A stretch of DNA of 64,000 nucleotides from Deuterostichococcus epilithicus. Taxonomy: Eukaryota > Chlorophyta > Trebouxiophyceae > Prasiolales > Stichococcaceae. Positions 6,067 through 49,246 of this stretch are shown here, in pieces. The translations under genes and the position numbers were made by a program. Location of the stretch: the NCBI GenBank assembly GCA_033439295.1, contig JAVTLE010000016.1, forward strand, positions 248,001 to 312,000. The letters run 5' to 3'. Numbering within the stretch: position 1 is the stretch's first letter; every line of letters starts with the position of its first letter. The notes below the pieces were generated by a model. It saw only the letters and a program-made list of their open reading frames with translations. It had not been told where the DNA came from and made no database searches.

Positions 6067-9000
6067 ATGGGCGGCGCTGGCGCGCCGCTCGCGCCGCCTG
6101 TGTGGCCGGCGCCGCCTCGGAGCGAGGCCAGCTGCGGCACTGCCGTCAGCGACTTTGCCGGCGCGGCCGCAGCAGCAGACATGACCGGCGGTGCCGAAAC
6201 CGGCTCTCCGCTTGCCAGCATGGAGTACAGCTCTGGTGGCGAGGCAGACTATGTCCAGCACGCCGTCAGCGGCGGCCGCCAACCGGCGGTCATCGCGGGC
6301 GGCGCCGGTGACCCGGCGCGGGCGGGTCAGCCCGGCGGCGACCCGCTGGAGGGGCACCAGCGCTACCGCAAGATCCGGGACCTCAATTGGTGACTTTCCA
6401 ACATTCCTGCCGACCACCGAGCAGTTGACCTCAAGTGACGCACTTGCCATGCCCAGTGCCTGTCCACAGCGTCCCCGGTCACGCCATGTGATCCGTGTCC
6501 TTGATGTGAGACTTTCGAGAACGCGGGTGCCTCGCTCATTCGACGCCGCCTCCCCGCCGCAGGGGCACCTCCGGCTTCGTGCAGCTGGCGCTAGATCTGC
6601 AGACGGGCACACACCTGGCCATCAAGTTCATCAGCCGCGGCCGCCAGCACGTGGACGTCAGCATGAAGGAGATCTCACGGGAGCTCCTGGTGAGGCGAAG
6701 CCCCTCTTTGTATCAAACGTCACGCCTGGTGTTTGGCTTTGCAGCAGAAGCTGCAGACACGCACCAGCCTCCGCAAGACCCAGAGATGCATGCTGCCCAG
6801 TGATCATGTCTGGACCACAAGCCCCCGTGGCTCCTGCTGGAGGCAGTTCAATCCGCTTACACCACCCGTTCGTGTCGCTTTGCAGAATCAGCGCATGTGT
6901 GCGCTGCACCCCAACATCGTGCAACTGCGGGAGGTTTTCCTGACGCAAGACTACCTAGCAGTCGCCATGGAGTACGCCGATGGCGGCGACCTGAGCGAGC
7001 ACATCGACCAGCAGTACCAAAAGGGGGTGGGTCCCTTGAAACGATGTAAACCATCCTCTGTCAGCTTCAGGCTTTCATGCTCTCATGCGCATGTCTGCCG
7101 CGTGGGAGTCTCTCAATGCCCTACGCTGGGTAGCTGCTGCCTGTTTGAAAGACATCCAGGTGTGCTTGGGTGTGGCCAGTTGGCATGGCAGCATACGTGC
7201 TCCAGGTGGACGTGAGAGTTGCTGGTACACATCTGCTCAACCTATGTGTATCTCTTGTGCAGATCGACTTCATGTCGGAAGATGACGCCCGCTGGATCTT
7301 CCAGCAGCTGATTATCGCCGTGGACTACTGCCACCGCCTGGGCATCGCCAACCGTGACATCAAGGTCAGGGCTTGTCTGCGCCACTTCTGCATGTCCCTG
7401 CCGCAGCTGCCGGGAATGGCCACCTTGCAGCCCCCCCCCCACCCCGGGGGGCACTAAACCCTAAAGCCCCCGGGGGCCCCCTAAACCCTAAGGGGGGGGG
7501 GGGGGGCTGTCTGACTGCACCCACGAGCAGCGACAGGCTAGTGCTGTTAGTTGTCTCTGGTGCCCACGCCGGGGCACGTGCCAAACAGCCTGGCGCCTCG
7601 CCTGCAGTTGGGCTGACGCATGACAAACTGAACATGCCGAGTTCCCCATGACCCGCAGCTGGACAACATGCTGCTGCACGGGCCGTGGCCGCGGCCGCAG
7701 CTCAAGCTGTGCGACTTCGGCTTTAGCAAGAATGAGGTGGTGCAGTCGGTGTCCAAGTCTACGTGCGGCACCCCCGAGTATATGGCGCCCGAGGTGCGGC
7801 TTCTCAATGTTCCAGTACATTCAAACGTTTCAACAGTGAACCCCCTGCTTGCCATCTCCACCAGAGTTTTGGGTAGGTGATGGCGACCTAGGATTGTGCT
7901 GCGCAGCAAGTGTTGGCATGTCCTGCGGGTTTCTATCAAAAGATCAGATCCTGTTATCAAACCTTTGCAGCTGTTGCATCTCCACTTTGCATCTGTTGCA
8001 TCTTATGATCCTTCCAAGGCACTCCAGGAAACTAGTGTGTCTGCGCAGGTGCTGTTTGAGATGAAGTACAACGGACAGGACGCAGATGTGTGGTCCTGCG
8101 GCGTCAGGTGCGAGCCTGTCCGGCGGCCTGAAATGCACCTGATTGTTTTGTGGCCAACTCAGTTTGCGGAAGTCGTCGCTGTTCGCCTCATCGCGGTGCT
8201 CTTGGCTGCTGGAGACCACCCAACTGCTGACGACTGGGTCGGTTCTGCTGCGCAGCCTGTACGTCATGCTCACCGGGGTGTTCCCCTTCAGCCGCCCCAC
8301 TGATGAGGTGCGCTCATGGTGACTGGCTTCTGGGACCATACTCGTGATGGACCTCACCAAGGCTGCGGGCACACAGTGCCACTGCTTCGCTGCCCACCTA
8401 CGAACGGTTGTAGTCGCGCAGAGGGGCCTGAAGTGTTGCTCCCACCTGTCAACCGCCGTCACTGTCCCTGCGACCCTGCAGACTGACTGGCATGCTGCGT
8501 GTCGCTGTTGCCACAGGCAGAAGCAGACAGCGCTGGCGGCGGCACGCGTGTCATGCGCCACATGTTCCGCCGCATCATCGCCGGCGACTACTTCCCCGTG
8601 CCCGAGGTGCCGCCGCCGCCCGTGCCTTCTCGTGTCCCTGCCACTCCATCGGTCGGGCTCTGTTGCGGTGCTGTGTCTCACCACGGTGAGGCACCATGCA
8701 ACTCGCCAGGGGAGACCCAGTCCATCTTGGACTTAGTATCCTCTGGCCTCTTGCTATTACTCAACCACTCGAGTGTGATCCCATTCTTCGCCGTGAAGCC
8801 TGGAACCCTCGCCCTGCGCAGCTGTCCGTGGAGGCGCAGCACCTGCTGCACCACATGTTCCGGCCGAACCCCGCGGAGCGGTGCACCACGGAGGACATTA
8901 TGGCGCACCCTTGGTTCACCAAGAACCTGCCGCCGGAGCTGGCCCAGCTGAACGACCGGCTGCTGGCGGCGAAGGCGGCGGAGCACGCCGAGTGCCGCCG

Positions 9001-9311
9001 CTCCCTCGGCGAGCTGGACAGGTGCGTGTGGGTGTGTTTGTGTTTGTGATTCTGCCACACGTAGAAGAGCTGCCTGACGCAGTTTTGAAATTATGCTGCT
9101 GTGCTGGCATGGGCCTCATGCTGTGCCCTGCCGCCAGTGACACAGCCCCTGCCGCTCTCCGGCCGTGTCAGCCATGATAGCATCTGCCCGCCGCATGACT
9201 TGCGGTCCGTCTGCCTCACACAGGTTTGTCGGCCCGCCCCCCTCGCGGCCCGGCGCCACCCAGCCCTTCAGCAACCCCTTCAGCACCGCCGCCCGGCGCG
9301 GCCTGTTCTGA
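6067..9311 (+). CDS. SnRK2-like serine/threonine protein kinase, intact copy
   Basis: Predicted cytosolic or nuclear Ser/Thr kinase of the plant SNF1-related group. Ten exons join without frame conflict to 438 residues: 6067-6389, 6563-6689, 6886-7026, 7263-7364, 7659-7793, 8049-8107, 8256-8307, 8517-8606, 8822-9021, 9224-9311. Start is the ATG at 6067; a second in-frame ATG is at 6181. Motifs: glycine loop NWGTSGFV (first Gly replaced by Asn), catalytic Lys129 in HLAIKF, catalytic loop NRDIK (His of HRD replaced by Asn227), Asp250-Phe-Gly in [19 protein letters not shown] at 268-276, then DADVWSCGV and [11 protein letters not shown]. The SnRK2 character rests on LCDFGFSK, the GTPEYMAPE activation segment and HPWFTKNLP. 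The first about 100 residues are Ala/Gly-rich and the tail is charged and helical. SnRK2 kinases act in osmotic and nutrient stress signalling; that role here is inferred. A degraded second copy lies at 37690-40964. Confidence 0.88.
7425..7508. repeat. Telomere-like CTAAACCCTAA motifs in C/G tracts, kinase intron 4
   Basis: Two CTAAACCCTAA motifs, matching plant/green-algal telomere repeat CCCTAAA, are embedded in C-runs and G-runs. The equivalent intron of the second kinase copy (about 39200-39240) lacks this insert, so it was gained by copy 1 or lost from copy 2. Confidence 0.7.
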
Positions 9312-12300
9312 GCAGCGAGCCGCCATGATTTGGGGAGCGCCGCTCGCTTGGCTGGCGGCCCTTGGCCGCCGTTGCCGCGAGGCCTACTCCGGCCCCATGA
9401 CCACGCAGCGGGGATTGCTGTGCTGACTGCTGCGGCCTGTAGCAGTCAGCGCAGCGTCCCTTGCGACGCGTGCCAGGGCCGGAACCCCCGGTGCACGGCC
9501 CAGTGCCCGGATTTTGGAGCGGCCACAGTGTCGGCTGGCCGCTGTGAAGCGCGGACTCCACACCACAGGCCCGCAGCGTCGCTGCCGCAAGGAGCCGTCG
9601 CGCTGGGGGGCCACGCAGCTCATCCGCGACAATCGCCCGTGGTTTACGTCTGCAAGACCCTTCATTTTTTTGGAAGCCACGTCCTGCTGTAGATAAGGAC
9701 AGCTGGGGGGACCGCGCCGCAGCCTGCTGCGCGGCGTCGTCCCCTTGCACATTTTGCAGAACGCCAACAGGCGGCAGCTGCGGCAACTCCACACCTATGC
9801 CATCACATGACACGGGCAAGGCTGGCTGGTCGGCGCTGCTGGCGGCGGCAGCGCGTGAGGGCTCATGTCGGCAGGCGCAAGCCTGCCCAGGAGCAAGATG
9901 CCTGCTGCCAGCAATGGCCGATGCCGCTGAACCCCACCACCGACACTCCAGCTGCAGAGAGCTGTCAGACGAGGTTGTAGGGCAATTGATTTCCTTGGTT
10001 CTTGGCGGTCGGCACGGGTGTCCAATTCCCGCCGCACCTGCAATTGCCGCTCTGTCTGTGTCGTCAGCATCTGCCTGACATGACACCGATCTAAACAGAA
10101 TATGCTTGTCTTGCATTACCAGCTAATGCTGATTGTGTGGCGCCCTCGACACAGCCACGGCTGAGTTTGTGGCGCCCGCGACGCTCCCTTAGGGCAACAG
10201 GGGTTGTCATCCGGGGCATGTGCGGCATGTACATGCTGCATGAAATTGCTTTACACACTGCAAAAGTATCGAGACCGATAAAATTTTAGAGATTGCAACA
10301 TTCGATGCGATTCGTCATATCATGTGCTGTGCAAGCCGTGTAACCCAGAAGAAGCACCTGCACCGGTCTGCACAATTCCCCTTGGTCCATCAGAATCGGT
10401 GACGGCGGCCTTACCTTCACTTCTTCCACTTCAAGTGTCTGCGACACCTCTACCGTTCTCAAGGACTACAGGTTCTGCTGGCCAGGTTCAGTAGTCATAC
10501 TGATGTTTGCATCACAGTATATGTGGAAACCGGTTTCAGCAGCGACTCTTCGCAGTTTTGCACTCTGGTCCAGGGCGGGCTGCACACACGCATCTGTACT
10601 GCAGTTATGTAGGGGATCTTAGCCCATACTGGAAAGGGGTACCTTTCGTGAGTGGGAAGAGGCCCGACTAGCAGATTCCATGAGGTCTTGCCCCGAAACC
10701 GTGAGCAACCGCAACGCCATTTGCGGCCAACTCCGGACGTTGCAGCACGCGCCACCCCAGTAGGATTGCAGTGTGAGAGTTAACTGAAGTCTCTGTGGGC
10801 TCGGTGGACGAGATTTTCTCGGTACGCACAGGTTGGAAGCGTCTACATCCGGCCCGTTTCCCCGCCAATCACCGTGTGCAGCGCGTCACTGCACGTATTT
10901 CGGCGGTGCTGACCTGCAAAGGCGCCTGAGAGGTTACAGTCACTCCGTTCATGGTGCGCAAGCTTGCGTGTTTGCTTTTAAGCACGAATTTTGCACTTGG
11001 GCGTGCATGCTATGCCTGGCTCGCACTCTCTTTCCAGCAGGCTTGGAGCTCATCAGAGTGTACTTTCCTGCCGACTGTTGCTGACTCTAGCACGTGTTAC
11101 GCAGGCAAGAAAGAGGAAAGCTACAGTGCAGACTGCCTCTAGCCGGTCAGCAAGGCGGCGGTGTCTGGTGGTGGACGCAGCTACGGGCAGGCTCGTGCCC
11201 GTGGTTCAGCCTCAGCGTGCTCAAAGCGGTGCCATACATCCCGAGCATGCAGCCAAGGAGCCTGACGCGGCAACAACGGCAGAAGCGGCGCTGCCGCCGC
11301 TGGCCACCATGCAATGCGACGGCGGGGCTGCCGCGAATGCAGACTCAGCTGAGCAGCCGGGTTTCGAGGCAGAGCCGCTGTTGCCGGAGCCGGACATACC
11401 TTCTGATGTCGAGGGCGACGAGTGCTGGCTCGGCGCTGACAGCCTCTGTGATGCTGACGACGATGATGCTGGCGGCTCTGCAACGCCGCAACATTCGGAC
11501 CTGGCCGCAAATGGCATTGCGGTGGAATCACGGACTCGGGTCAAGACCTCACGGAATCTGCTAGTTGGGCCTCTTCCCACTCACGAAAGGTACCCCTTTC
11601 CAGTATGGGCTAAAGTCCCCTACATGACTGGCATGCGGGAAACCTGGTCTAGTGCTGGCCGACGACAACACCGAGGTATCTGATCGTGCTTGCACTTTGC
11701 CACAGTCCTCTGCCTTTTGGCACTACAACTCTTCGGGTGTCTCATCGACCTCGAACACACCATCATCAAGGGTGTGCAGGCACACGTAGGATGGCAGCTG
11801 CAAGTCTGAAACTGAACATGCTTTCGGCAGCAGCTCGCGCAACGAGCAGCGCAGCTGGAGGCAGATGACCGCGCGATGTTCTAGGTAAATTTGGAAATGC
11901 CGTGTCTTTGCGGGGAGAATGAGTCGGTGTCAGTTCAACCTGGTTTATACCAACAACGTGGCATCCCTGTGCTCTCCACGCCCCTGCGATGTCGACTCTT
12001 TCACGTAAAATTCAGGCATGCAATGTAGCGGCGTCCTTTTTGTTGTTGAGTATGCTGTGGGGCAGGACGCACAAGTCAATATGGGCGCTCCAATGCAGGT
12101 GGCCGGCTCGTCGCTAGGCGTCTCAGCACACTCTCTCGCCTCGCAGCAGGTCTGCATCAGTCAAAGTCCGTGGCGCTTTGCTGCAGCACTGTGCGGACTG
12201 CTTGTAAGCTGTGACAGCGAGCTGCATGGGCCAAGCATGTGCAGGTTGCCGGCCGCATCGTAGTCACCACCATACGCGCACAGCTCTAACGCTGCGCTGT

Positions 12301-12616
12301 CTGCCACGCGCCAGGCCGGACCCCTTTCCAGGGCGCCGCCGTGCCCGCGGTCACTGGGCAGCCCTGCAGCCGCGGTCAGCGCGCGTATCAGGTGGGTTCG
12401 CAGCACAGTCGGTGGCCTGAGCAAGCACGCCATGCCTGTGTAGGCCCCGCCACAATTGCGCGCCCGATTCTGCGGACCCTTGCCCCTGTCAGTGATGCAT
12501 GGCCAGAGTGGGGGTCAGAACCGGAGGCCTGCAGTATCTGGGCTCACTCTCATCTCCAAGCCGCCATTTGGAAGGCTGCCAGGCGCTGCGTCGCCGCAGC
12601 GGACGGTCGCCGCCCA
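9312..12616. other. Kinase-reductase spacer, unit 1; no confident gene
   Basis: About 3.3 kb is nearly identical to 40965-44245 (about 97-98% by eye). It holds the kinase 3' UTR and the reductase upstream region. Open frames here (for example 10991-11683 + and 9280-10116 -) are not preserved as frames between the copies: small indels break them. This argues against a conserved protein apart from a short protein-like motif in the inverted repeat described separately. Confidence 0.6.
10602..11630. repeat. Inverted repeat, arms about 145 bp, unit 1
   Basis: Left arm 10602-10745 matches the reverse complement of right arm 11485-11630 at roughly 85-90%. Each arm, read from its own strand, encodes LLVGPLPTHERYPFPVWAK with mostly silent or conservative differences, so it looks like an inverted duplication of a former coding exon. 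The same structure is in unit 2 with arms 42246-42390 and 43121-43264, so it predates the segmental duplication or was carried by conversion. Confidence 0.85.
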
Positions 12617-14786
12617 ATGCATCCAGCTGACATGCACCTGCTGCCCCCACAGGTGCGCGCCGAGAGCGGCGGCAACGGCACTGGCAATGAATCCGGCGAG
12701 TACGACTTCGACCTGTTCACGCTTGGCGCCGGCAGCGGCGGGACCCGCGCGTCCCGCATGTCCGCCCAGAATCACGGTGCGCGGCGGTGTGCCAGCTGTG
12801 ACTCAGGCGGCCATCGCTGCTTTGCCACCAGGACCTGCCAAACTGAACCGCCGGACGGCGTCGACGGCGGGCTGCCAGCGGGGCGCTGGGAAGCCAGGTC
12901 GGACGATGCTGGCCGCGCCGCTGCAAGCCCTAGCCTCGTTCCTGCACGCTGTGAGGCGCCGCCTCCACGCAACGCTCCCGGCGCTAAGGCATCGAAACCC
13001 ACCAGCGACTGCCGCCGCGCAGGCGCTAAGGTGGTGGTGTGCGAGCTGCCCTTCGGCTCGTCAGCAGCAACGCCATTGGCGGCACCTGCGTCCTGCGCGG
13101 CTGCGTGCCCAAGAAGCTCATGGTGTACACTGCGGGCTTCACCCAGGAGTTCCGTGAGAGCCGCGGCTTTGGGTGCGCTCTTGTCGGTCCGGGTGCGGAA
13201 GGTTCAGCTGCCCAGGGCGTCCTGCAACCATGCAGAAATGAAGGAGAGCTGCTTCAGTTCGCTACTTGCTCGTCTTGGCCTGAGCCAGGGTGCAGATTCA
13301 GTGGGTGTTCCAGCTGCGGTGGCAGGGCCAGGGAGCTGTGGCCGCCGTGATGCTGACACGCTTAAGCCAGTTCAGCTGGGGCACAGCAACGCCAACTGAC
13401 AGGCGGACGCTCGGCGGCTGCTGCGGGCAGGCCGCCGGCAGCGTGCAGGCATAGTATTCCAGCTTGACCCCAACATGCTGTGTTACCGCAAGACAGCCTC
13501 AGGCGCATCGCGGGGCGGGCGCCCCCAGCAGTGGCCTTGCAGGAGATGTGACCTACCCAGTGCTGTGAACTGCGACCGATGCCGGTCCCCTCAGGTGGAA
13601 CGTGCCAGACGGCCTGGAGATCGACAGGGACAGTTTCATGGAGAAGAAGAACAGCGAGCTGAAGCGGCTGAACGGTGTCTAAGACAAGCTGCTGGCCAAG
13701 GCGGGTGTGACCTTCATCGAGGGCCGCGGCAAGCTGATCGATGCGCACACCGTCGACGTGGACGGCAAGCGCTACACGGTGCGGCTGTGCTTGCTTTCCC
13801 TTATTGGCAAAGCGGCTGACAACGTGTTGCCGAAGCCTTACTGAAGGTTGCGGCAAACTGGTCGATGTGCATGCCATCGATGTGGACGGCAACCGCCACA
13901 CGGTGCTGCAGACCACTCACTGTCGAGATCATCCTCAGGCATTCTTCTTCGAGGTCGCCTTTGTGTGTTGACTAGCTGTGCACATGAGGTAACAGGCTGC
14001 GGGAGACGCATTGCCGCTGCTGAGCAACCTGATGCCCATGTGGATTGCAAAGCTCAAGCAACCTCGAGCATTCTGCCGAAAGTCGCGCGCGGCATGCAAT
14101 GAAAACGCACTATCCGTCTTCGTGGCAACACTGGCAACACGGACGTGGAAGCGGCACGCAAGGCTGGAAACGGTTTGGAACGGTCTGGGCGGTCTGGTCA
14201 ACAATCTTTTGCATTTGTGTTCTGCAGGCGAAGAACATCTGGATTGCCGTGGGCAGCCGCGCGGTGCGCACGCCCATTGATGGGGCGTAGCACTGCCTCA
14301 CCTCCGACGAGATCCTGGTCCTGCCCAAGGCAAGCACTTCCCCCACACCCGCCCGTTCTCCATTCCCAACCCCGCAGCGCCTTTGCATCTCGTAGGTATT
14401 CGATCTGAACGCCTGCCTTTGCTTGCTTGCTGCAACAGATGCTTTGGGCACAGCGCAGGGAGCGACACAGCCCCAAAGATGCTTACCCGGCCCCCGCAAC
14501 CCGCCGCCCGGCATTGCCGCTGTGTGCCTTACGCAATCCTTGGCTGACTGCCAGGTCAAACGCAGCGTTTCGCCCGCCAAGTTGCTGGTACAGCAACATG
14601 GCGGTACGAGTAACTGACATTACGACCTCTCATTCGAGATTTTCTTGTAGGTACCTAGAAAGCTGGTGGTCATTGGCGGCTGCTATTTTGGCCCGGTGTC
14701 CACGTCATGTTCAAAATCCTGGACATGTGTTGGGTTCGACCCTGACCCCTGTTCTGCGCCGTTCTGCACAGGTGCCCAAGAAGCTC

Positions 14787-14819
<33 letters not shown>

Positions 14820-16405
14820 TTCGCCTCCATGTTCAACAACCTGGGCACGGAGGTGGACATCTTCATCCGCGGCGTGGGCCTGCTGCAAGGCTTCGACATG
14901 GAGGTGTGAGGCTGACACCGGAGCTCCCCAACTCGCGAGCTTCCGGCAGACACCAAGAAGTGATGCAGCAGCACCCAGGAGCGTTCACCGAAATGGAAGC
15001 CCCTCTGCACACACAGGTCATGGCGTTCGCCAAGAACGTCTTTGGTCAGGACGCGGACGCGCGGCCGGTGTACGAGAACGTGGCGTCGGCTGTCTTTACG
15101 TCGCCGCAGATCGCGACGTGCGGCCTCACTGAGGAGGAGGCCGCCGAGCAGTGCGGCGACCTGCTCATCTTCACCTCCACCTTCAGGTGTTTGATTGCCC
15201 ACTCCAGTCCTCCACTCCGGTCGTCACATCCGGTTGTCCGTTCCGGTTGACCACTCCGGTTGTCCATTTTCGAGTGAAACCTCATTCTTCTTTCCTGTGC
15301 TCGGGGCACGCACCCTGCCACCTGTGACGCCGGTGGAGGTGGCAGCGGTGGCAGCGCTGCAGCTCTTCACTCTCGCCATGGATGCCAAAAGACTGTTTTG
15401 CCTCTGTCTGATCTGCCTGCAGCGGCAGCGGGTGGCACTGCCTCCCCTGGTGGCTGATGGAAGGTTCCACCTTGGCAGCCATGCTCCTGCGCGTGCCTGC
15501 TGCCCAGGTTCTTTGCCAGGGCAATTCCATCAGCCATCACATCGCGACTGTGGAGGGGCGAAGGCTGCTCGTTCCTGCAGGGGGAGCACCCGCGCCACGG
15601 TCTCGCGAGCCCTTGCAATGAGGGCAAGGGCTCCATCATGCTGGTCGTGGCTAATTAGGGTCTAGGGTGTGTCCGATTCGGTGTCTTCTCTGGCGCAGGG
15701 GCATGCGGGCGACCATCTCTGGCGACGAGGGCAAGGGCTTCATCAAACTCATCGTGGCCAAGGACACGGACAAGCTGGTCGGCAGCCACATCGTCGGCTC
15801 CGAGGCCGCGGAAATCATGCAGGCGCGCACAAACATCTCACATCATATTTCTATTAATTTCAGGGAATCATCCGTCTGTACGTCCATACGGACGTACAAT
15901 CGCTGCAGGCACGCATTCGCACAAGAGGCCCAAAGGCCTGCTGACATGGCAGTTGCCTGATGTGGGCCTGCTGAGCACTGCTCCTTCCATGCGGCGCCTT
16001 CCATGCGGCTCCTTCCATGCGGCGGGGCTCCTTTCATGCGGCTGATCGCCTTGATGCGGAGCTTCAATCCGAGAGCACAGCCGTGTCTGGACCTGACAGG
16101 AAGCGGAGGTGCAGGCGTCACTGCGGCAATCAGCCATACTCAGGCATCAAGATTGTCACAGTGACAACCAGCCTGCATCCTCGTGGTCCGGTACTTCGAG
16201 GTCTCACCCTGGAGCGACTCCCGGCGCCCCCTCCCTGCAGGGCATCGCGGTCGCCATGAAGATGGGCGTCACCAAGAAGCAACTGGACAGCACGGTGGGC
16301 ATCCACCCCTCGTCCGCGGAGGATGTCGTGACGCTGCGCGACGTCACCCACGAGGTGTCCGCTAAGGGCGCCGCCGGCAGCCAGAAGGCGACGCAGCACA
16401 CCTGA
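12617..16405 (+). pseudogene. Glutathione reductase pseudogene (unit 1 copy)
   Basis: Exon remnants match the intact copy at 44246-49246: 12653-12776 (FAD-binding [16 protein letters not shown]), 13023-13172 (redox-active [13 protein letters not shown]), 13595-13778, 14228-14329, 14772-14903 (NADPH-binding [16 protein letters not shown]), 15017-15186, 15699-15822 and 16241-16405 ([12 protein letters not shown], stop). Lesions relative to the intact copy: one base missing in exon 2 just before the redox disulfide; TAC changed to TAA at 13680-13682; GAG changed to TAG at 14288-14290; and loss of the two exons for the rest of the NADPH domain and the second FAD segment, with a junction near 14935. 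No full-length enzyme can be made. The surviving catalytic cysteines and His motif suggest recent decay. Confidence 0.9.
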
Positions 16406-17551
16406 AGCTCTGAAGAGAAAGATGGCGATCTGACATCGTTTTTGGGGTGGAGCTACGATGCCGCGGCAAGGGGCACGGTTGGCTCCTGCCACGGGTGGTG
16501 ATGGTGCCACCCTGGGCGCGCTGCCAGCGCTGGCAGCTGGCGCTGTGGAATCACGCGGGAGACCGGCCGGCATGCTGCGCACACCCGATGATACACAGCG
16601 CCAGTGGTGTGCTGGTCATATATACTCCGAGCGCTCTGCTGGGCTGGGTGTCTTGACGGCTCTGCGCTGGCGAACAGCAGCACCTCGCAGGCTTCGGTCA
16701 TGGGGGTGTATCGTCACCGCTGCAGGGCAAAGAGTCTCGAAAAGAGTGACTGAGCAGTCGCGGTACCAAGCGGCGCCACTGCTGCATAGTGTAGCGCTGT
16801 CTGGCAGCGGTCAACCCTTTGACCTGTTTCTCCTTGCCGGGCAACATTGATGCATCAGCATCTTGCAGCGGCCGTTGTGTTGCCTCAGTGGCAGATCGCT
16901 TGCACTTGACTTGTCGTGTGGGCGCAATATGATGGCGGGGACCCTGACCTGGCAGTACGCTATTGTATCATTCATGAGATGTGCTGGCGGCTTGGCCCAG
17001 CGTCAAACGGTCTGCCGGACACTGTGAGCTCATCTGCAAGACTGGCCTGCTGATCGTTGTAGCACACAGTTACGCGTGATTACATGCTGGCTGATGTTCT
17101 AATACGAGTATTTAGCCTGTCGGGAATAAAAAGCAATGAAGTCACCTCATGCACCTTCAAGTGGGCAGCCACATTCCAACTAATGGAATGTGCTTTTTTG
17201 TGTGAGAATGTGAGAACCTAGCCCGCAACATGAGATATCAGATTATCAATTCTTTCGCAGTGGCACGTGCTGTTCATCCTGCCAAGCTAAAACAACAACC
17301 ACACATGCGATGCTGGCTCCAATAAGTTTGAGATGTAGAGGATCTCTGCTGAAGGCTGCCACGCCCTCATACGCTCTTCAAATCGTCCACAGTGAAGTGC
17401 GCTGATGGCTGACAGCAGTGCATCCACTGCAGCTGCAATCCCCTCTGAGCAAAGCTGCAATCTGCGGACCCCCCTAGCCTGCATCTTGTCAAGAAACCGC
17501 TTTGCACATGACGCAAACTGGTGCTAGGCAGGGTTTGCCACCCTTCAGCGG
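16406..17551. other. No gene seen: reductase 3' flank and convergent 3' region
   Basis: The first about 470 bp matches the 3' flank of the intact reductase (49247-49705), so it is old UTR/flank. The rest, up to the stop of the large minus-strand gene, is more AT-rich and shows no supported exon. A 13-base CTCAGTGGCAGAT at 16884-16896 recurs at 36728-36740. Confidence 0.55.
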
Positions 17552-34601: not shown

Positions 34602-34650
34602 CCGCCTAACGCAGTACCTGCAGCCGAGGCAAATGCAACGTCGCAGCTCA

Positions 34651-36959: not shown

Positions 36960-37695
36960 TTGCAGGCGTTGTCGCCAGCTCAGCAGTAAGGCACCACCGA
37001 TATGAAGCCTTCCCTTCATGGCCCACCTCTGCGGGGGTGCTCTCGGCAGTGACCGCTGCCACCCTGCCCTTATGGACGACTCTCGGTGTGCGGCCAAGAG
37101 CTTGCACATCCGCGCTATTGCGTCCCTTCATATACACGGTGATTGCAGGCTCGTCCCGAATCGTGTTCGTGGTGCTATGCAGAAACAGGAAGTGCGAGGA
37201 TGACAGCCATCGATGGCTATCGATTTCCACAGCCCGTCCAACACTCGAATGGCTCGCAAACCGATCAATTCTTGTGCAGCGACCTTTTAGGGCGACTCAT
37301 GACCACCATGCCGGATACCAGAGGCTTGCAGATGTTGCAGATGTCGCAGAGGCTGCGGCTCTGGGACTGAGCACGGCTGGCAGCATTGTGGTAGCTTTGA
37401 CGCCTACTGCGGCTGCTGCCGGCATGCAGGCTCAGTGCAGCCGATGCCGCAGCCGCTACCATCCGCCACTCGCTGCCGCCAGCTGATGCCGACTATGCTG
37501 TCGTTGGGTGCGCACCCAATCCTACACGCGGCTTGGGTAGAGCATGCCCCGCACGCGGCCACCTGGAGCGACAGCAATAATGCATCAACTTCAGCGACCT
37601 GCACCATGCAGGAGTCAATCCAACGGGAAGCAAGGCATGTGCAGGCGATGCGCGTGATCGGCAGCCGGAAGTAAAGCCAGACCCGGCGACAAACG
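36960..37695 (-). pseudogene. Duplicated 3' end of the eL33 (RPL35A) gene, truncated
   Basis: This segment is a diverged copy of about 50070-50785, the 3' flank, last exon and part of the last intron of eL33. On the minus strand the last exon is still readable (GRVRGMLYPSRV then TAG at 37522-37524), but one base is missing just after the splice acceptor and the upstream exons are absent. It ends abruptly at about 37690-37700, where kinase exon 1 sequence begins; both parents share a short CGCAAG-like microhomology. It is the tandem-duplication junction. Confidence 0.8.
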
Positions 37696-40600
37696 CAAGA
37701 ACCGAGACCTCAATTGGTGCGTTCCTCGCATGCATGCCAATGACTGAGCAGTTTTCATCCTCAAGTGACGCATCCGTGATGCACGGTGCCTGTGCACAGC
37801 AGGGTTCGGCCAAACGGCTAACGCGTCTGAACGTGAACGCGTTCGGAACGCATTTGAACGTTTCTGTCTCAACGCACCCAAACGCCAAACCCCTCGCAAA
37901 CGGCACACGTGATTGTCATCAGACGAGTCAGTCAGTCAGTTAGGCGACAAGCTGCTGCTAGGAAACACATCTCTTCGTGCAGAATCAAACGCAAGCATGC
38001 TTGGAAAGCTCTGTTGAGCCTCCCATGTATCGTGATAGCCTGCCTCAGTACTCCAACAGCGCCTGTAGCACTGCCTATGTCCGGATTACCTCAGCACCTC
38101 TAGGCTGACTAAGGCTTGCCGGTTGCACAGCCGTTTCAGATGTCGTTTGCCGTTTAAACGCGTTTCAAACGCGGTCAACGGCAGCCAAAAATGCCCAAAC
38201 GCGCGTTTGGCCGAACCCTGGTCACAGCGTCCCCAGCCATGCGCTGGGATGAATTTCCTTGATGCGAGGTTCTCAGGGAAGCAGCTGCCTCGCTTACTCA
38301 ATGTGGCCTTCCCCGCCGCAGGGGTACCTCCGGCTTTGTGCAGCTGGCACTAGATCTGCAGACGGGCACGCACCTGGCCATCAATTTCGTCAGCCGCGGC
38401 TGGCAGCACGTGGACGTCAACATGAAGGAGATCTCGCGGGAGTTCTTGGTGAGCCGAAGCCCCTCTTCATATTGGTGTTACGCCCAGGATTTGGCTTTGC
38501 AGCAGGAGCTGCGGACACGGGTAAGCCTCCGGCAGACCTGGTGACGTTTGCTGCCCAGTAATCATGCACTCTCGTGGCTCCTGCTGGAAATACTTTACAC
38601 TACTTACACCACCCGTACGTGTCGCTTTGCAGAATCAGCGCATGTGTGCGCTGCACCCCAACATCGTGCAACTGCGGGAGGTTTTCCTGACGCAAGACTA
38701 CCTAGCAGTCGCCATGGAGTATGCAGATGGTGGCGACCTGAGCGAGCACATCGACCAGCAGTACCAAAAGGGGGTGGGTCCCTTGAAACGATGTAAACCA
38801 TCCTCTGTCAGCTCCCGGCTTTCATGCTCTCATGCGTGTCTGCCACGTGGGACTCCGTCTTTCAACGCCCTACACTGGGTAGCTGCTGCCTGTTTGAAAG
38901 ACATCTAGGTGTGCTTGGGTGTGGCCAGCTGGCATGTGTTGTAAGCATCATCATGCAAGCTTCAGGGTGGTGGGTGAAGTTTGTTGGTATAAATCTGCTG
39001 AGCCTTTGTGTAAATCTCATGTCGATCGACTTTCATGTCGGAAGATGACGTCCGCTGGATCTTCCAGCAGCCGATTATCGCCGCGGACTACTGCCATCGC
39101 CTGGGCATCGCCAAGCGTGACATCAAGGTCAGGGCTTGTCTGCGCCACTTCCCTATGGCCTGTCGGGCTGCATGTCCCTGCCGCAGCTGCCGGGAATGGC
39201 CCCCTTGCAGCCAGGCCCCCCTGTCACTCGGGTCTGTCTGACTGCATAAGCAGCGACAGGCCAGTGCTATTTGTCTCTTGTGCCGGCGCCGGCGCGCGTG
39301 TCATCTGGCTTGGTAGCTCGCCCGCAGTTTGGCTGACACACGACCCTGCTCCGTTCCCGTGCCCCGCAGCTGGACAACATGTTGCTGCACAGCCTGTGGC
39401 CGCGGCCGCAGCTCAAGCTGTGCGACTTCGGCTTCAGCAAGAACGAGGTGGTGCAGTCGGTGTCCATGTCTACATGCGGCACGTCTGAGTATATGGCGCC
39501 TGGGGTTCGACTTCCCAAAGTGTTTCGCTCATGCAAACAGTGCACAAGCGAAGTCTCTGCTGTCACCTGTACAGGGTTGTGGAGACCCAAGGCTGTGCAG
39601 CGCAGCAAGTGCTGGCACATCCTGTTGATACCACTCAAACATTGGCAAAACATATGTGTGCCGCCAAGTTGCTACTGATCATTCTTACGGCACTCTAGAA
39701 AGATATCGCGCCTGCGCAGGTGCTGTTCGAGATGAAGTACAATGGCCAGGACGCCGACGTGTGGTCCTGCGGCGTCAGGTGCGAGGCCGTCTAGCAGCCT
39801 GACATGCACCCGATAGTTTTGTGGCCAGCTCGGTGGGGTGAAGTCGTTGAGTGTGAAGTCGTTGTTTCATATCCTCTCATCGTGGTGCCCTGACTGCTGG
39901 AAATCACTCAGCTGCTGACAACTGCGTGGGTTCTGCTGCGCAGCCTGTACGTCATGCTCCCTGGGGTGTTCCCCTTCAGCTGCCCCACCTATGAGCTGTG
40001 CTCTTGCTGACTGGCCTTTTGCTGTGAACCATACTGGACCTTACCCAGGCCATGTGCACACGATGCAACTGCTTTGCTGCCCACCTATGCATGGGTGTAG
40101 TCTTGCAGAGTGGCCTGGACAGCTGCTCCCACATTTCGACCGCCAGCACTATTGCTGCAACACTGCAAACTGACCCACATGCCGTGTGTTGCTGTTGCCA
40201 CAGGCAGAAGCAGACAGCACTGGCGGCAGCACACGCGCCAAGCGCCACATGTTCCACCGTAGCATCGCCGGCGACTACTTCCCCGTGCCTGAGGTGCTGC
40301 CGCCTCCCGCGCCCTGTCTTGTCGCTGCAACTCAATGGCCGGACTTTGCTGTGTGCTCTGTCTTTCCAAAATGCGCCCCGCACTCACATAAGTGTGAAAG
40401 AAATTTCCTGGTCCTTGGCCGTGCTTAACCCTGAAATTTTGTGCTAAAGCCTGAAACCTGCCCTGCGCAGCTGTCGGTGGAGGCGCAGCACCTGCTGCAC
40501 CACATGTTCTGGCCTGACCCCGCGGAGCGGTGCACCATGGAGGATATCTTGGCGCACCCCTGGTCCACCAAGAACCTGCCGCCGGAGCTGGCCCAGCTGA

Positions 40601-40964
40601 ACGACCAGCTGCTGGCGGCAAAGGCGGCGGAGCACGCCGAGTGCCGCCGCTCCCTCGGCGAGCTGGACAGGTGCGTGTGGGTGTGTGTGTGTTTGTGATT
40701 CTGCCACACGTAGAAAAGCTGCCTGACGCATTTTTGAAATTATGCTGCTGTGCTGGCATGGGCCTCATGCTGTGCCCTGCGGCCAGTGACACAGCCCCTG
40801 CCGCTCTCCGGCCGTGTCAGCCATGCGTGATAGCATCTGCCCGCCGCCTGACTTGCGGTCCGTCTGCCTCACACAGGTTTGTCGGCCCGCCCCCCTCGCG
40901 GCCCGGCGCCACCCAGCCCTTCAGCAACCCCTTCAGCACCGCCGCCCGGCGCGGCCTGTTCTGA
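37690..40964 (+). pseudogene. SnRK2-like kinase pseudogene (unit 2 copy)
   Basis: Matches the intact kinase exon by exon: 38322-38448, 38633-38773, about 39014-39127, 39370-39504, 39720-39778, 39944-39995, 40204-40293, 40471-40670, 40877-40964. Lesions: exon 1 is missing except its last few bases; the catalytic Lys of HLAIK is Asn (HLAINF); the exon 4 acceptor AG is lost and an extra T shifts the frame; the catalytic loop reads KRDIK; the APE Glu is Gly (YMAPG); the exon 7 donor GT is CT; and several core residues changed (LTG to LPG, QQL to QQP). A MITE interrupts the first intron. The last two exons are almost unchanged because they fall in the highly similar tract. Any transcript would not give an active kinase. 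Confidence 0.9.
37800..38220. mobile_element. 421-bp hAT-type MITE
   Basis: Perfect 17-bp terminal inverted repeats, CAGGGTTCGGCCAAACG at 37800 and its reverse complement ending at 38220. Flanks GTGCACAG (37792-37799) and GTCACAG (38221-38227) fit a degenerate 8-bp target-site duplication of GTCCACAG, which occurs once and uninterrupted at the empty site in unit 1 (6462-6469). CAGGG ends and an 8-bp duplication are hAT hallmarks. There is no transposase, so it is non-autonomous. Subterminal parts are rich in AACGCGTTT-like words. Confidence 0.9.
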
Positions 40965-43900
40965 GCAGCGAGCCGCCCTGATTTGGGGAGCGCCGCTCGC
41001 TTGGCTGGCGGCCCTTGGCCGCCGTTGCCGCGAGGCCTACTCCGGCCCCATGACCACGCAGCGGGGATTGCTGTGCTGACTGCTGCGGCCTGTAGCAGTC
41101 AGCGCAGCGTCCCTTGCGACGCGTGCCAGGGCCGGAACCCCCGGTGCACGGCCCAGTGCCCGGATTTTGGAGCGGCCACAGTGTCGGCTGGCCGCTGTGA
41201 AGCGCGGACTCCACACCCGCAGCGTCGCTGCCGCAAGGAGTTGTCGCGCTGGGGGGCCACGCAGCTCATCCGCGACGATCGCCCGTGGTTTACGTCTGCA
41301 AAACCCTTCAACTTTTCGGAAGCCACATCCTGCTGTAGATGAGGACAGCTGGGGGGATAGTGCCGCAGCCTGCTGCGCGGCATTGTCTCCTTGCACATTT
41401 TCAGAACGCCAACAGGCGGCAGCTGCGAAAACTCCACACCTATGCCATCACATGACACGGGCAAGGCCGGCTGGTCGGCGCTGCTGGCGGCGGCAGCGCG
41501 TGAGGGCTCATGTCGGCAGGCGCAAGCCTGCCCAGGAGCAAGATGCCTGCTGCCAGCAATGGCCGATGCCGCTGAACCCCACCACCGACACTCCAGCTGC
41601 AGAGAGCTGTCAGACGAGGTTGTAGGGCAATAAATTTCCTTGGTTCTTGGCGGTCGGCACGGGTGTCCAATTTCCGCCGCACCTGCAATTGCCGCTCTGT
41701 CTGTGTCGTCAGCATCTGCCTGACATGACACCGACCTGAACAGATTATGCTTGTCTTGCATTAACAGCTAATGCTGATTGTGAGGCGCCCTCGACACAGC
41801 CACGGTTGAGTTTGTGGCGCCCGCGACGCTCCCTTAGGGCGACAGGGGTTGTTATCCGGGGCATGTGCGGCATGTACATGCTGCATGAAATTGCTTTATA
41901 CACTGCAAAAGTATCGAGACCGGTGAAACTTTAGAGATTGCAACATTCGATGCGATCCGTCATATCATGTGCTGTGCAAGCCGTGTAACCCAGAAGAAGC
42001 ACCTACACCGGTCTGCACAATTCCCCTTGGTCCATCAGAATCGGTGACGGCGGCCTTACCTTCACTTCTTCCACTTCAAGTGTCTGCGACACCTCTACCG
42101 TTCTCAAGGACTACAGGTTCTGCTGGCCAGGTTCAGTAGTCATGCTGATGTTTGCATCACAGTATATGCGGAAACCCGTTTCAGCAGCGACTCTTCGCAG
42201 TTTTGCACTCTGGTCCAGGGCGATCTGCACACACGCATCTGAACTGCAGTTATGTAGGGGATCTTAGCCCATCCTGGAAAGGGGTACCTTTCGTGAGTGG
42301 GAAGCGGCCCGACTAGCAGATTCCGTGAGGTCTTGACCCGAAACCGTGAGCAACCGCAACGCCATTTGCGGCCAACTCCGGACGTTGTAGCGCGCGCCAC
42401 CCCAGTAGGATTGCAGTGTGAGAGTTGACTGAAGTCTCTATGGGCTCGGTGTACGAGATTGTCTCGGTACGCACAGGTTGGAAGCGTCTACATCCGGCCC
42501 GTTTCCACGCCAATCACCGTGTGCAGCGCGTCACTGCACGTATTTCGGCGGTGCTGACCTGCAAAGGCGCCTGAAAGGTTATAGTCACTCCGGTCATGGT
42601 GCGCAAGCTTGCGTGCTTGCTTTTAAGCACGACTTTTGCACTTGGGCGTGCATGCCATGCCTGGCTCGCACTCTCTTTCCAGCAGGCTTGGAGCTTATCA
42701 GAGTGTACTTTCCTGCCGACTGATGCTGACTCTAGCACGTGTTACGCAGGCAAGAAAGAGGAAAGCTACAGTGCAGACTGCCTCTAGCCCGTCAGCAAGG
42801 CGGCGGCGGTGTCTGGTGGTGGACGCAGCTACGGGCAGGCTCGTGCTTGTGGTTCAGCCTCAGCGTGCTCAAAGCGGGGCCATACTTCCCCAGCATGCAG
42901 CCGAGGAGCCTGACGCGGCAACAACGGCAGAAGCGGCGCTGCCGCCGCCGGCCACCATGCAATGCGACGGCGGGGCTGCCGCGAATGCAGACTCAGCTGA
43001 GCAGCCGGGTTTCGAGGCAGAGCCGCTGTTGCCGGAGCCGGACATCCCTTGGCGACGAGTGCTGGCTCGGCGCTGACAGCCTCGGTGATGCTGACGACGA
43101 TGATGCTGGCGGCTCTCTTTCACCGCAACATTCGGACCTGGCCGCAAATGGCATTGCGGTGGACTCACGGATTCGGGTCAAGACACGGAATCTGCTAGTT
43201 GGGCCTCTTCCCACTCACGAAAGGAACCCTTTTCCAGTAAGGGCTAAGGTCCCCCACATGACTGGCATGCGGGAAACCTGGTCGAGTGCTGGCCGACGAC
43301 AACACCGAGGTATCTGATCGTGCTTGCACTTTGCCACACTCCTCTACCTTTTGGCACTACAACTCTTCGGGTGTTTCATCGACCTCGAACACACCATCAT
43401 CAAGGGTGTGCAGGCACACGTAAGATGGCAGCTGCAAGTCTGAAACTGAACATGCTTTCGGCAGCAGCTCGCGCAACGAGCAGCGCAGCTGGAGGCAGAC
43501 GACCGTGTGATGTTTTAGGTGAATCTGCAAATGCCGTGTCTTTGCGGAGAGAATGACTCGGTGTTAATTCAACCTGGTTTATACCAACAACGTGGCATCC
43601 CTGTGCTCTCCACGCCCCTGCGATGTCGACTCTTTCACGTAAAATTCAGGCATGCAATGTAGCGGCGTCCTTTTTGTTGTTGAGTATGCTGTGGGGCAGG
43701 ACGCACAAGTCAATATGGGCGCTCCAATGCAGGTGGCCGGCTCGTCGCTAGGCGTCTCAGCACACTCTCTCGCCTCGCAGCAGGTCTGCACCAGTCAAAG
43801 TCCGTGGCGCTTTGCTGCAGCACTGTGCGGACTGCTTGTAAGCTGTGACAGCGAGCTGCATGGGCCAAGCATGTGCAGGTTGCCGGCCGCATCGTAGTCA

Positions 43901-44245
43901 CCACCATACGCGTACAGCTCTAACGCTGTCTGCCACGCGCCAGGCCGGACCCCTTTCCAGGGCGCCGCCGTGCCCGCGGTCACCGGGCAGCCCTGCAGCC
44001 GCGGTCAGCGCGCGTATCAGGTGGGTTCGCAGCACAGTCGGTGGCCTGAGCAAGCACGCCATGCCTGTGTCGGCCCCGCCACAATTGCGCGCCCGATTCT
44101 GCGGACCCTTGCCCCTGTCAGTGATGCATGGCCAGAGTGGGGGTCAGAACCGGAGGCCTGCAGTATCTGGGCTCACTCTCATCTCCAAGCCGCCCTTTGG
44201 AAGGCTGCCAGACGCTGCGTCGCCGCAGCGGACGGTCACCGCCCA
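40965..44245. other. Kinase-reductase spacer, unit 2; no confident gene
   Basis: Near-identical partner of 9312-12616, including the inverted repeat (arms 42246-42390 and 43121-43264). A small + frame of 81 codons (43652-43897) differs by a single residue from its partner at 12018-12263. In such a uniformly similar tract that is not evidence of selection. Confidence 0.6.
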
Positions 44246-47200
44246 ATGCATCCAGCTGACATGCACCTGCTGCCCCCACAGGTGCGCGCCGAGAGCGGCG
44301 GCAACGGCGCGGGCAACGGGTCCGGCGAGTACGACTTCGACCTGTTCACGCTTGGCGCCGGCAGCGGCGGGACCCGCGCGTCGCGCATGTCAGCCCAGAA
44401 TCACGGTGCGGAGTGGTGTGCCAGCTGTGATTTAGACGGCCATTGCTGCTTTGCCACCCTGACCTGCCCACCTGGACCGCCGGACGGCGTCGACGGCGGG
44501 CTGCCAGCGGGGCGCTGGGAAGCCAGGTCGGACGATGCTGGCCGCGCCGCTGCAAGCCCTAGCCTCGTCCCTGCACGCTGTGAGGCGCCGCCTCCACGCA
44601 GCGCTCCCGGCGCTAAGGAATTGAACCCCACCAGTGACTGCCGCTGCGCAGGCGCCAAGGTGGCGGTGTGCGAGCTGCCCTTCGGCTTCGTCAGCAGCGA
44701 CGCCGTCGGCGGCGCCGGCTGCGTCCTGCGCGGCTGCGTGCCCAAGAAGCTCATGGTGTACGCTGCGGGCTTCACCCAGGAGTTCCGTGAGAGCCGTGGA
44801 TTTGGGTGCGCTCCTTTTGGTCTGGCTGCGGAGGTTCAGCTGCGCATGGCGTCCTGCAACCGTGCAGAAATGAAGGAGAGGTGCTTCAGTTCGCTACTAG
44901 CTCGTCTTGGCCTGAGCCAGGGAGCAGATATAGTGGGTGTTCCAGCTGCGGTGGCAGGGCCAGGGAGCTGCGGCCGCCGTGCTGCTGACGCGCTTAGGCC
45001 AGTTCAGCTGGAGCACAGCAGCGCCAACTGACAGGCGGACGCTCGGCGGCTGCTGCGGGCAGGCCGCCAGCAGCGTGCCAGGCATATTTTTCATCAGCCT
45101 GGACCTAACATGCTGTGTGGTCGCAAGGCAGCCTCAGGCGCATCGCGGGGCGGGCGCCCGCAGCAGTGGCCTTGCAGGAGATGTGACCTGCCCACTGCTG
45201 TAAACTGCGACCGATGCCGGTCCCCGCAGGTGGAACGTGCCAGAGGGCCTGGAGATCGACTGGGACAGTTTCATGGAGAAGAAGAACAGCGAGCTGAAGC
45301 GGTTGAACGGCGTCTACGACAAGCTGCTGGCCAAGGCGGGTGTGACCTTCATCGAGGGCCGCGGCAAGCTGATCGATGCGCACACCGTCGACGTGGACGG
45401 CAAGCGCTACACGGTGCGGCTGTGCTTGCTTTCCCTTGTTGGCAAAGCGGCTGGCAACGCGTTGCCGAAGCCTTACTGACGGCATGCACAAACTGGTTGA
45501 TGTGCATGCCGTTGATGTGGACGGCGACCGCCACACGGTGCTCCCCTTGCAGACCACTGGCTGTCGAGATCATCCTCACGCATTCTTCTTCGAGGTCGCC
45601 TTTGTGTGTTGACTAGCTGTGCAAATTAGGTGACAGGCTGCGGGAGACGTATTGCCGCTGCTGAGCATTTGATGCCCATGTGGACTGCAAATCTCAAGCA
45701 ACCTCGAGCATGTTCTGCCGACAGCGCGTGCGCGGCATGCAATGAAAACGCACTATCCGTCTTCGTGGCAACACTGGCAACGCGGACGTGGAAGCGGCAC
45801 GCAAGACTGGAAACGGTTTGGAACGGTCTGGGCGGTCTGGTCAACAATCTTTTGCATTTGTGTTCTGCAGGCGAAGAACATTCTGATTGCCGTGGGCGGC
45901 CGCGCGGTGCGCGCGCCCATTGATGGGGCGGAGCACTGCCTCACCTCCGACGAGATCCTGGTCCTGCCCAAGGCAAGCTCTTCCCCCAAAACCGCCCATT
46001 CTCCTTTCCCAACCCCGCAGCGCCTTTGCATCTCGTAGGTATTCGATTTGAACGCCTGCCTTTGCTTGCTTGCTGCAACACATGCTTTGGGCACAGCGCA
46101 GGGAGCGACACAGCCCCAAAGATGCTTACCCGGCCCTTGCAACCCGAAACCGGCATTGCCGCTGTGTTCCTTACGCAAGCCTTGGTGAATGCCAGGTCAA
46201 ACGCAGCGTTTCGCCCGCCAAGTTGCTGGTACAGCAACATGGCGGTACGAGTAACTGACATTACGACGAGGTTTTCTTGTAGGTACCAAGAAGCTGGTGG
46301 TCATTGGCCGCTGCTATTTTGGCCTGGTGTCCATGTCATGTTCAAAATCCTGGACATGTGTTGGGTTCGACCCTGACCCCTGTTCTGCGCTGTTCTGCAC
46401 AGGTGCCCAAGAAGCTCGTCGTCATTGGCGGCGGCTACATCGGCCTGGAGTTCGCCTCCATGTTCAACAACCTGGGCACGGAGGTGGACATCTTCATCCG
46501 CGGCGCGGGGCTGCTGCGCGGCTTCGACAAGGAGGTGTGAGACTGACACCGGAGCTCCCCAGTGCCGGATCCTGATGGCTCTGATCATTCTGCGGTGGGA
46601 CGTCTTCATCCACGGCGCTGGACTATGCGGCTTCGGCGGCTTCGACGAGGGAGCGTCCCTGACACTGGCTCGTTGATCACGTATCATCTACGACACGGAG
46701 GTGGTCATGGCCGACGGTTTGCTGGCTCCAGGGTGTGGGTGTCAAGTGTGACACAGTGGACTGCACATCCTGCGCAGATGTGTGGTCGCACATGCTGCTG
46801 ACGGCGCACCCTCCTCTGCGGCGTTCCGCCGCGGCCTTGCCGCACAGCTGCACTTTGTACCTGCCCTGCGCAGCATCCCCACCGCACAGTTGTGGGTGCA
46901 TAGCCGATCGGCATGTACATGTCTCTCTGTGCTGACCCGCCTCCCTGCCTCCTGTGGCGCGCATCTGGTGGGGCTTTGGCGCAGTGCAGTACGAGCGAAG
47001 GGGCTGCAGACACACGGATGCGCCAGTCTCGATGCGGGAAAACCCTTCAATGCTCGACATCAAAGTCACGTTTCGAGCTCACCCGCCCTGTGCGGTTGCG
47101 CAGCTGGTGGACTTCGTCACAGAGGAGTACGAGAAGAAGGGGCTGCGGATACACAAGTACACCAGCCCAAGCCAGATCGTCAAGAACGACGATGGCAGCG

Positions 47201-49246
47201 TGACGGTGCACGCGGACAAGCAGAAGGAGGGCGGAGACGAGAAGGACGCCATCCAGGAGACCGCCGACTACTGCCTCATGGCCACGGGGCGCAAGCCCAA
47301 CACAAAGAACCTGGGCCTGGAGGACGTGCGCAGTCTTCCACCCTCCAAAGCCCTGACGCATCCTGTGAGAAGGTGCCGTGCATGGAGTGGCTGCTGTGGA
47401 GGCTGATCCCGGAGGAGCTCTGGATCTGGGATTCTGCACGAGGAGCCGGCTGGCCCGCCGCAGACCCAGAGGCTTGCTTGCGCCGAGCGGCGCTGTGTGC
47501 AGATTGGCGGCAGACCACAGCCTCCACCGTGCCGTGCAGTTCACAACAGAGCCTGCTGGCTTATTGGCAGCTGACCGGTCGTGCGTCACATGGAAGCTCC
47601 TCTGACTGGGAGGAGCCTCGGCCAAGTGCAATCACTGTCCTGGCTCGGCTTCAGGATCTCTGCCAACTCCAGGTCGGTGTGGACCTCGACGACGGCGGCG
47701 CCGTGAAGGTGGACGAGTTCAGCCGCAGCAGCGTGCCCAACATCTACGCCATCGGCGACGTCACCAATCGCGTCAACCTGACGCCCGTGGCGCTCATGGA
47801 GGTGGGGGCTGCGGGGGGCATGGTTGCGCATGGGTTTGAAGTCTCCTTCTTAGGGTGTTATGATGCAGGGGGTGCGCCCGCACCGCCCTTCATGCGACCT
47901 CTCCTTGAAACCCTCCGAAAACGTCCTTCAGGAACCAGGGCGATGAACGAGTGGTGCAGCAGCACCGCCCAGGAACATTCAACAGGAGCAAGGGTAACCC
48001 TGAAGCCCAACCCTTCTGCACAGGGCATGGCGTTCTCCAAGAACGTCTTTGGCCGGGACGCGGACGCGCGGCCCGTGTATGAGAACGTGGCGTCGGCGGT
48101 GTTCACCGCGCCGCAGATTGCGACGTGCGGCCTCACGGAGGAGGAGGCCCGCGAGCAGTGCGGCGACCTGCTGATCTTCACCTCCACCTTCAGGCGAGAC
48201 TGGTCGTCCACTTTACGACTGTCCACTCTGGTTGTCCACTCAGGTTGTCCTCTCCGAGTGGAACCTCGTTCTGCGGTTTGGTGCTCGGCGGCACACGCCT
48301 CGCCACCTGCGGCGCCAGTGGAGGTGGCACCAGTGGCGGCGCTGCAGCTCCACAATGGCGCCGTGGGTGCCAACGACTTTCTTACTTCTTCTGTCTGATC
48401 TGTCTGCATCGGCAGCAGGCGGCGGCGCCTCTCCTGGCGGCATGCTGACGGCATTCACCTGGCAGCCCTGCCCTGCGCCCGCGCATCGCCGCTCCCAGAG
48501 TGCTTCGCCAGGGTGCTGCATCGGCTGTCACACCGTCGCTGTGGAAGGGCAGAGGCTGCTCATTCCTGTCGGGAAGGCCTCTCTGCGCCATGGTGTCGAG
48601 CAACGGGCGCAACGGCTTCTTCGAGTTGGTCGTGGCCAATGTTTCCAAAGCGTTGGTGTCTCGTTTGGAGCAGGGGCATGCGGGCGACCATTTCGGGCGA
48701 CGAGGGCAAGGGCTTCATCAAACTCATCGTGGCCAAGGACACGGACAAGCTGGTCGGCAGCCACATCGTCGGCTCCGAGGCCGCCGAAATCATGCAGGCA
48801 CGCGCACGCTGCACGCACGCATTTGTACTAGTGGCCTACAGGCCTGCCGACATGGTAAACCGTACGTGGGTCTGCCGAGAGTTGTTGGCGGGGTCCCACG
48901 CGGCTGGTCGCCTTGCGCTGGAGCTTCAGACCGAGAGCACAGCCGTGTCTAGACCTGACAGGAAGCAGAGGTGCAGGCTTAGCTGTGGCAAATTAGCCAC
49001 CCTCAGGCATCAAGGCTGTCATCAAGGCTGTTATCATCCACACCAGAGCAACTCACAGCCCCGGCTCCCGTGCCGCAGGGCATCGCGGTCGCCATGAAGA
49101 TGGGCGTCACCAAGAAGCAGCTGGACAGCACGGTGGGCATCCACCCGTCGTCCGCGGAGGAGATCGTGACGCTACGCGACGTCACCCGCGAGGTGTCCGC
49201 CAAGGCCACCGCCGACGGCAGCCAGAAGGAGACGCAGCACGCCTGA
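44246..49246 (+). CDS. GR: Glutathione reductase, intact copy
   Basis: NADPH-dependent flavoenzyme that reduces glutathione disulfide. Exons: 44246-44405, 44652-44805, 45230-45413, 45871-45972, 46403-46534, 47104-47325, 47673-47801, 48024-48193, 48674-48797, 49079-49246, about 514 residues with all phases consistent. Motifs in order: FAD GAGSGG in [16 protein letters not shown]; redox disulfide [32 protein letters not shown]; second nucleotide motif [39 protein letters not shown]; interface CGLTEEEA; and catalytic His-Pro in [12 protein letters not shown]. The start is either ATG 44246 or 44261, both in frame with exon 1. No convincing transit peptide and no clear SKL tail are seen, so it is probably the cytosolic type, whose C-terminus it resembles most ([21 protein letters not shown]). 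Three introns begin with GC rather than GT (after 45972, 48193 and 48797). Confidence 0.93.

Follow-up and report, generated by a model that had tools for sequence, protein, structure and literature searches.

Divergent resolution, in which different lineages lose different copies of a duplicated gene, is the process described in portions of two reports, one on pTAC14 in Mimulus (PMC5896889) and one on duplicated-gene incompatibilities in Arabidopsis (PMC8042742). The locus examined here resembles those systems, as these portions present them, in that it contains redundant duplicates silenced by degenerative mutation. A first-pass annotation had read it as reciprocal decay, with a kinase kept in one duplicated unit and a glutathione reductase (GR) kept in the other, and had proposed that such divergent resolution can cause incompatibility between lineages. 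A literature search returned, among the matches listed, no paper that apparently treats this locus. We analyzed a window of 64,000 nucleotides, the whole stretch considered here, which spans positions 248,001 to 312,000 of contig C14 in a genome assembly of 46.8 Mb and 21 contigs.

Layout of the duplication

The window contains two homologous blocks in direct orientation, unit 1 (approximately 6.36 to 16.87 kb) and unit 2 (approximately 37.69 to 49.70 kb), which are linked, lie about 31 kb apart and each carry a kinase and GR pair (Table 1). Genes rich in introns, a GC content of about 60% and the presence of SnRK2-like kinases are in keeping with a green alga. Self-BLAST aligned 6459-14930 with 38217-46561 at 89.4% identity, 15012-15831 with 48019-48806 at 77%, and 16021-16869 with 48887-49700 at 74%, a similarity far above chance (E = 0 across 8.5 kb). 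With sensitive BLAST used for the kinase start, homology extends from 6357/37683 to 16869/49700. The 3-kb core between the kinase and GR (9312-12290) occurs twice in the 46.8-Mb genome, and no copy besides those in the two units was present among the candidates scored genome-wide. The direct-orientation blocks, together with the damage to one of the two kinases and one of the two reductases, identify the locus as a tandem duplication with pseudogenes. Within the 3-kb middle, an element-like stretch (10602-11630, and 42247-43264 in unit 2) has inverted ends of about 145 bp that are 86-89% alike and was found in the two units only; an ORF at 11091-11564 has no Pfam match.

Table 1. Features of the duplicated locus, in window coordinates
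Feature	Coordinates	Strand	Description
K1, SnRK2-like Ser/Thr kinase gene	6067-9311	+	Intact; gene model of 10 exons, 438 codons
High-identity middle tract, unit-1 side	8813-14924		95.7% non-coding identity vs 76% and 73% in flanks; probable gene-conversion tract
G1, glutathione reductase pseudogene	12653-16405	+	Exons 1-5 and 8-10 left
Unit-1 remnant in place of unit-2 46562-48018	14931-15011	+	Exons 6-7 deleted
R1, left direct repeat	36995-37691		End is the putative duplication junction; 71% identity to 50106-50787
K2, kinase pseudogene	37692-40964	+	5'-truncated at the putative junction; lesions given in text
MITE in K2 intron 1	37800-38220		421 bp; inverted ends CAGGGTTCGGCCAAACG
G2, glutathione reductase gene	44282-49246	+	10 exons modelled, 502 codons; true start upstream
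Altered redox motif of G2	44705-44722	+	V-G-G-A-G-C vs G-G-T-C before first redox cysteine
R2, right direct repeat	50106-50787		Adjoins minus-strand gene reading as eL33

A direct repeat of about 700 bp, R1 and R2, lies on both sides of unit 2. Besides R2, the part of R1 that we searched with had no other match among those scored in the genome. The gene beside R2 is, judging from its translation, one that we take to encode ribosomal protein eL33 (L35Ae). Kinase homology in unit 2 starts at 37,683, that is, at the end of R1 (37,691), which would place the junction of the tandem duplication inside kinase exon 1, near 37,691. The simplest reading is that a block from within this exon to the end of the repeat was duplicated in tandem. 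Between the unit-1 GR and R1 lie 20 kb (16,870-36,994) that have no counterpart in unit 2; the corresponding place there holds 405 bases, and the 20 kb and the 405 bases are unlike each other. A minus-strand PT-repeat ORF (27086-27901) is found within these 20 kb. Also between the units, a 225-bp sequence is repeated three times in tandem at 34646-35320, with 97-100% identity to its first copy.

Lesions in the kinase and reductase copies

The unit-1 kinase, K1, had been called intact, and it is indeed a complete gene in which all nine introns are GT-AG. Its best PDB matches are SRK2E (E = 4.1e-71) and SAPK10, and it has the residues looked for in a SnRK2-like kinase: the catalytic Lys (in AIKF), the catalytic-loop Asp (in NRD), DFG and APE. 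The catalytic loop reads NRD rather than HRD, as it does in 11 of the 12 paralogue regions that we inspected among many related kinase exons elsewhere in the genome, whose counts are lower bounds. Intron 4 of K1 (7430-7510) contains long C and G runs and telomere-like CCCTAAA motifs, with a gap at this place in unit 2.

K2 lacks both the key residues and the open frame of a SnRK2-like kinase. As the first-pass annotation had reported, it has lost exon 1, the catalytic Lys, an acceptor and a donor. Of exon 1 only the last 25-34 bases of coding sequence are present, the catalytic Lys is replaced by Asn (AAG to AAT, at 38,383), the intron-3 acceptor is changed from AG to CG (39,023-39,024), and the exon-7 donor from GT to CT (39,996-39,997). 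We found further lesions beyond these: a 1-base insertion in exon 4, a catalytic loop changed from NRD to KRD (39113), TPEY changed to TSEY (39484) and APE to APG (39502), a MITE in intron 1, and no in-frame ATG upstream of the exon-1 tail as far back as a TGA at 37,655. The MITE, which we take to be hAT-like, recurs elsewhere in the genome at least 10 times at nearly full length (84-92% identity), in addition to at least some partial copies; it may be flanked by an imperfect target duplication of 7-8 bp.

Over exons 2-10, 29 residues distinguish K1 from K2. In the tblastn pieces, Lys129, Ala206, Pro270 and Glu276 are invariant in 12 of 12 paralogue regions and Asn227 is found in 11; K1 retains all five, and K2 has another residue at each. 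At positions 131, 359, 366 and 370 the K2 residue is also present in paralogues, such variable sites being uninformative. By this comparison, the conserved residues of the paralogues side with K1 over K2.

The damage that had been described in the unit-1 reductase, G1, is likewise present: a single base missing from exon 2 near 13058, stop codons at 13680 (TAA) and 14288 (TAG), and the loss of exons 6-7, reported at 1.37 kb, which measures a net 1,376 bases by BLAST limits and 1,363 as the total of two large MAFFT gaps. Although frameshifted upstream, G1 keeps GGT-C at 13081-13089 (GGC GGC ACC TGC). In each unit, GR exon 5 is immediately preceded by a degenerate, incomplete copy of itself (14651-14740 and 46283-46370), which, being common to both, is either older than the duplication or was carried by conversion.

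The modelled exons of the unit-2 reductase, G2, are open as far as the stop codon, and its closest PDB matches are bacterial GRs, followed by trypanothione reductases. In the G2 model, three of the nine introns are GC-AG, with GC donors at 45973, 48194 and 48798; in unit 1 the counterpart of the second is a GT donor. Besides gaps, the reductases differ at 28 codons, two of which are the G1 stops. We aligned them with 11 relatives, comprising a second, canonical GR gene on contig C12 and 10 bacterial plasmid gor-like genes picked by eye for taxon spread, not at random, from the 40 listed among 238 matching records. A wider search for GR loci gave only one relative (L064, Phocicoccus), which was left out of the alignment. 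At 64 columns invariant in the 11 relatives, G2 departs at two, one of them common to G1, whereas G1 departs at three, including the common one, and lacks a full codon at 12; G1's GGT-C codon is left out of this comparison as gapped. At 25 columns alike in 10 of the 11, G2 departs at five, of which three are shared with G1 and two lie where G1 has its deletion; G1 departs at four. The conserved residues of the relatives side with G2 over G1.

Age, probable exchange and constraint

Non-coding identity between the units is 1061/1389 (0.764) on the left, 4844/5061 (0.957) in the middle and 952/1302 (0.731) on the right. The best change points are 8813 and 14924, with a likelihood ratio of 732; 20 permutations on a coarser grid gave no more than 15. 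With an identity of 73-76% in their outer non-coding parts, the copies are old. Kinase third positions agree in direction with the tract (differences at 30 of 236 positions in exons 2-8 and at 6 of 96 in exons 9-10), and the right-hand step coincides with the G1 deletion. The likeliest cause of the step, judged by identity alone, is gene conversion, which probably acted on the middle (8.8-14.9 kb) after duplication.

We hold the following account to be fairly probable as a whole. A block from inside exon 1 of a SnRK2-like kinase, through the kinase and GR, to the flank of the eL33-like gene would have been copied, presumably in one event. The downstream kinase copy would then, most simply, have arisen with neither its promoter nor its first exon, and K2 went on to collect its inactivating changes. 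As K2 begins at the duplication junction, the simplest view is that exon 1 was left out of the copying; its absence does not call for decay. GR would have been copied whole and been redundant with its twin; the unit-1 copy died through the 1.4-kb internal deletion, the frameshift and the two stops, while the conserved sites suggest that the unit-2 copy was kept under selection, and conversion probably homogenized the middle. Several things count against this account: the substitution counts of K2, given below, fall short of those expected of a copy free from birth; the changed motif of G2, considered below, sits badly with a gene that is kept; conversion is read from identity alone; and the 20 kb between GR and R1 are left without counterpart or explanation.

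Strict reciprocal decay, in which both genes were duplicated complete and stayed functional for long, with K2 (exon 1 included) and G1 decaying independently, excludes this account and is possible but doubtful. The first-pass annotation had named dN/dS as a check, and our pairwise values between the copies speak for long function: 0.24 for the kinase (bootstrap 95%, 0.14-0.39) and 0.28 for GR (0.16-0.46), both below 0.5; they count for the account above as well. We compared the counts of non-synonymous changes with those expected from the substitution spectrum of the non-coding alignment (781 mismatches among 7309 sites), the null being one copy free since birth beside a fully constrained twin. 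Of 65 changes in the kinase, 30 are non-synonymous and 35 synonymous, where 38.7 non-synonymous changes were expected (P = 0.02); exons 2-8 alone give 24 of 53 (P = 0.02). For GR, 30 of 62 changes are non-synonymous (36.8 expected, P = 0.053), with 13 of 30 in exons 8-10 (18.1 expected, P = 0.044). Having fewer non-synonymous changes than expected, each pseudogene may have been under constraint for some of its history, and the dead copy is estimated to have evolved neutrally over no more than about 0.58 of its branch for the kinase and 0.64 for GR, again in favor of strict reciprocal decay. For K2, the signal sits uneasily with a truncated origin; the copy may once have been expressed, or exon 1 may have been lost later.

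Against strict reciprocal decay, the statistical margin is small, and GR exons 1-5, in the middle tract, fit one copy that was free throughout (17 of 32, 18.8 expected, P = 0.32). In addition, the 5' end of K2 is the end of R1, so that a single breakpoint event suffices. Of the reciprocal decay first proposed, the complementary pseudogenes in one linked duplication stand, and the decay of two once-complete copies is only half supported, as the missing exon 1 of K2 coincides with the junction.

The altered redox motif and the meaning of the locus

G2 had also been called intact. Its modelled exons are open, but the label is doubtful at the redox motif, where G2 has GGAG-C and each of the 11 aligned relatives has GGT-C. 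The pattern GG-x-C-[LIVA]-x2-GC-[LIVM]-P matches all 11 relatives and does not match G2, and the shorter redox motif of glutathione-disulfide reductases, G-G-x-C-x3-G-C, which we take to be PROSITE PS00076, likewise separates G2 from the 11. GGTC is also seen in the five PDB alignments shown for G2, three of them to near-identical trypanothione reductases. In the C12 gene the motif is GGAGGT-C, its Thr codon split by an intron; from a C12-like GGAGGT stretch, loss of two codons in G2 and of three in G1 would explain both motifs. A strong hairpin as a source of sequence error at the motif was unsupported (z = -0.67 and -0.08).

One reading is that G-G-A-G-C inactivates G2, so that the cell relies on the C12 gene and the locus keeps only its kinase. 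This can hold with either reading of the kinase, and we regard it tentatively, as a minority view. In its favor, besides the motif, G2 scores 572.3 bits with TIGR01424, below the cut-off of 606.05, while the C12 gene scores 613.3. Against it, G2 passes the NF004776 cut-off (527.2 bits, cut-off 480), and the motif is its sole departure unshared with G1 in the 64 invariant columns. Such a lone departure speaks for a lesion of very recent date, for a change that is tolerated or for an error in the sequence, and the data fit all three.

It is improbable that both reductases are broken in complementary ways, G1 keeping the canonical motif and the open G2 having lost it, within a tract of apparent exchange. 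Sequence would then still be passing between a pseudogene and its twin, or G2 would be drifting toward a reductase-like protein with a changed redox center. The altered redox motif in an otherwise conserved-looking GR is the point most worth attention. We reject as very improbable an assembly artefact in which two haplotypes were joined end to end: a few Ns in the window indicate an imperfect assembly, but outer non-coding identity is just 73-76%, the 17-37 kb and 50.8-64 kb stretches match each other only in short pieces (E of 0.016 or weaker), and the junction of R1 with the kinase resembles that of a duplication.

The account that we favor, an old tandem duplication with K2 born truncated and G1 lost later, would mean that the breakpoint of a block may settle beforehand which gene copy will die. 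In this small duplicated block, the better-conserved genes are split between the two units. The wider claim of hybrid incompatibility goes beyond what the data carry: divergent resolution of that kind is unsupported by one haplotype with linked copies, a second GR gene and many kinase paralogues. With the C12 GR and the many kinase exons, further genes of each kind do exist elsewhere; as putative stand-ins, they would reduce the stake of the losses.

In Mimulus (PMC5896889) and Arabidopsis (PMC8042742), according to the portions cited above, the copy of a given gene that was lost differed between genotypes, whereas here different genes are broken in two linked units of a single genome. A second difference from those systems is that related genes are also present elsewhere in this genome. 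The closer likeness is to tandem or segmental duplication followed by nonfunctionalization, with which the locus shares linked copies, one better-conserved copy per gene, varied lesions and signs of conversion. Nothing essential sets it apart from ordinary nonfunctionalization of duplicates; the losses fall on opposite units, an outcome that would have an even chance if it were random which copy of each gene is lost. Beside these systems, the locus is a case of ordinary duplicate decay plus one unexplained motif.
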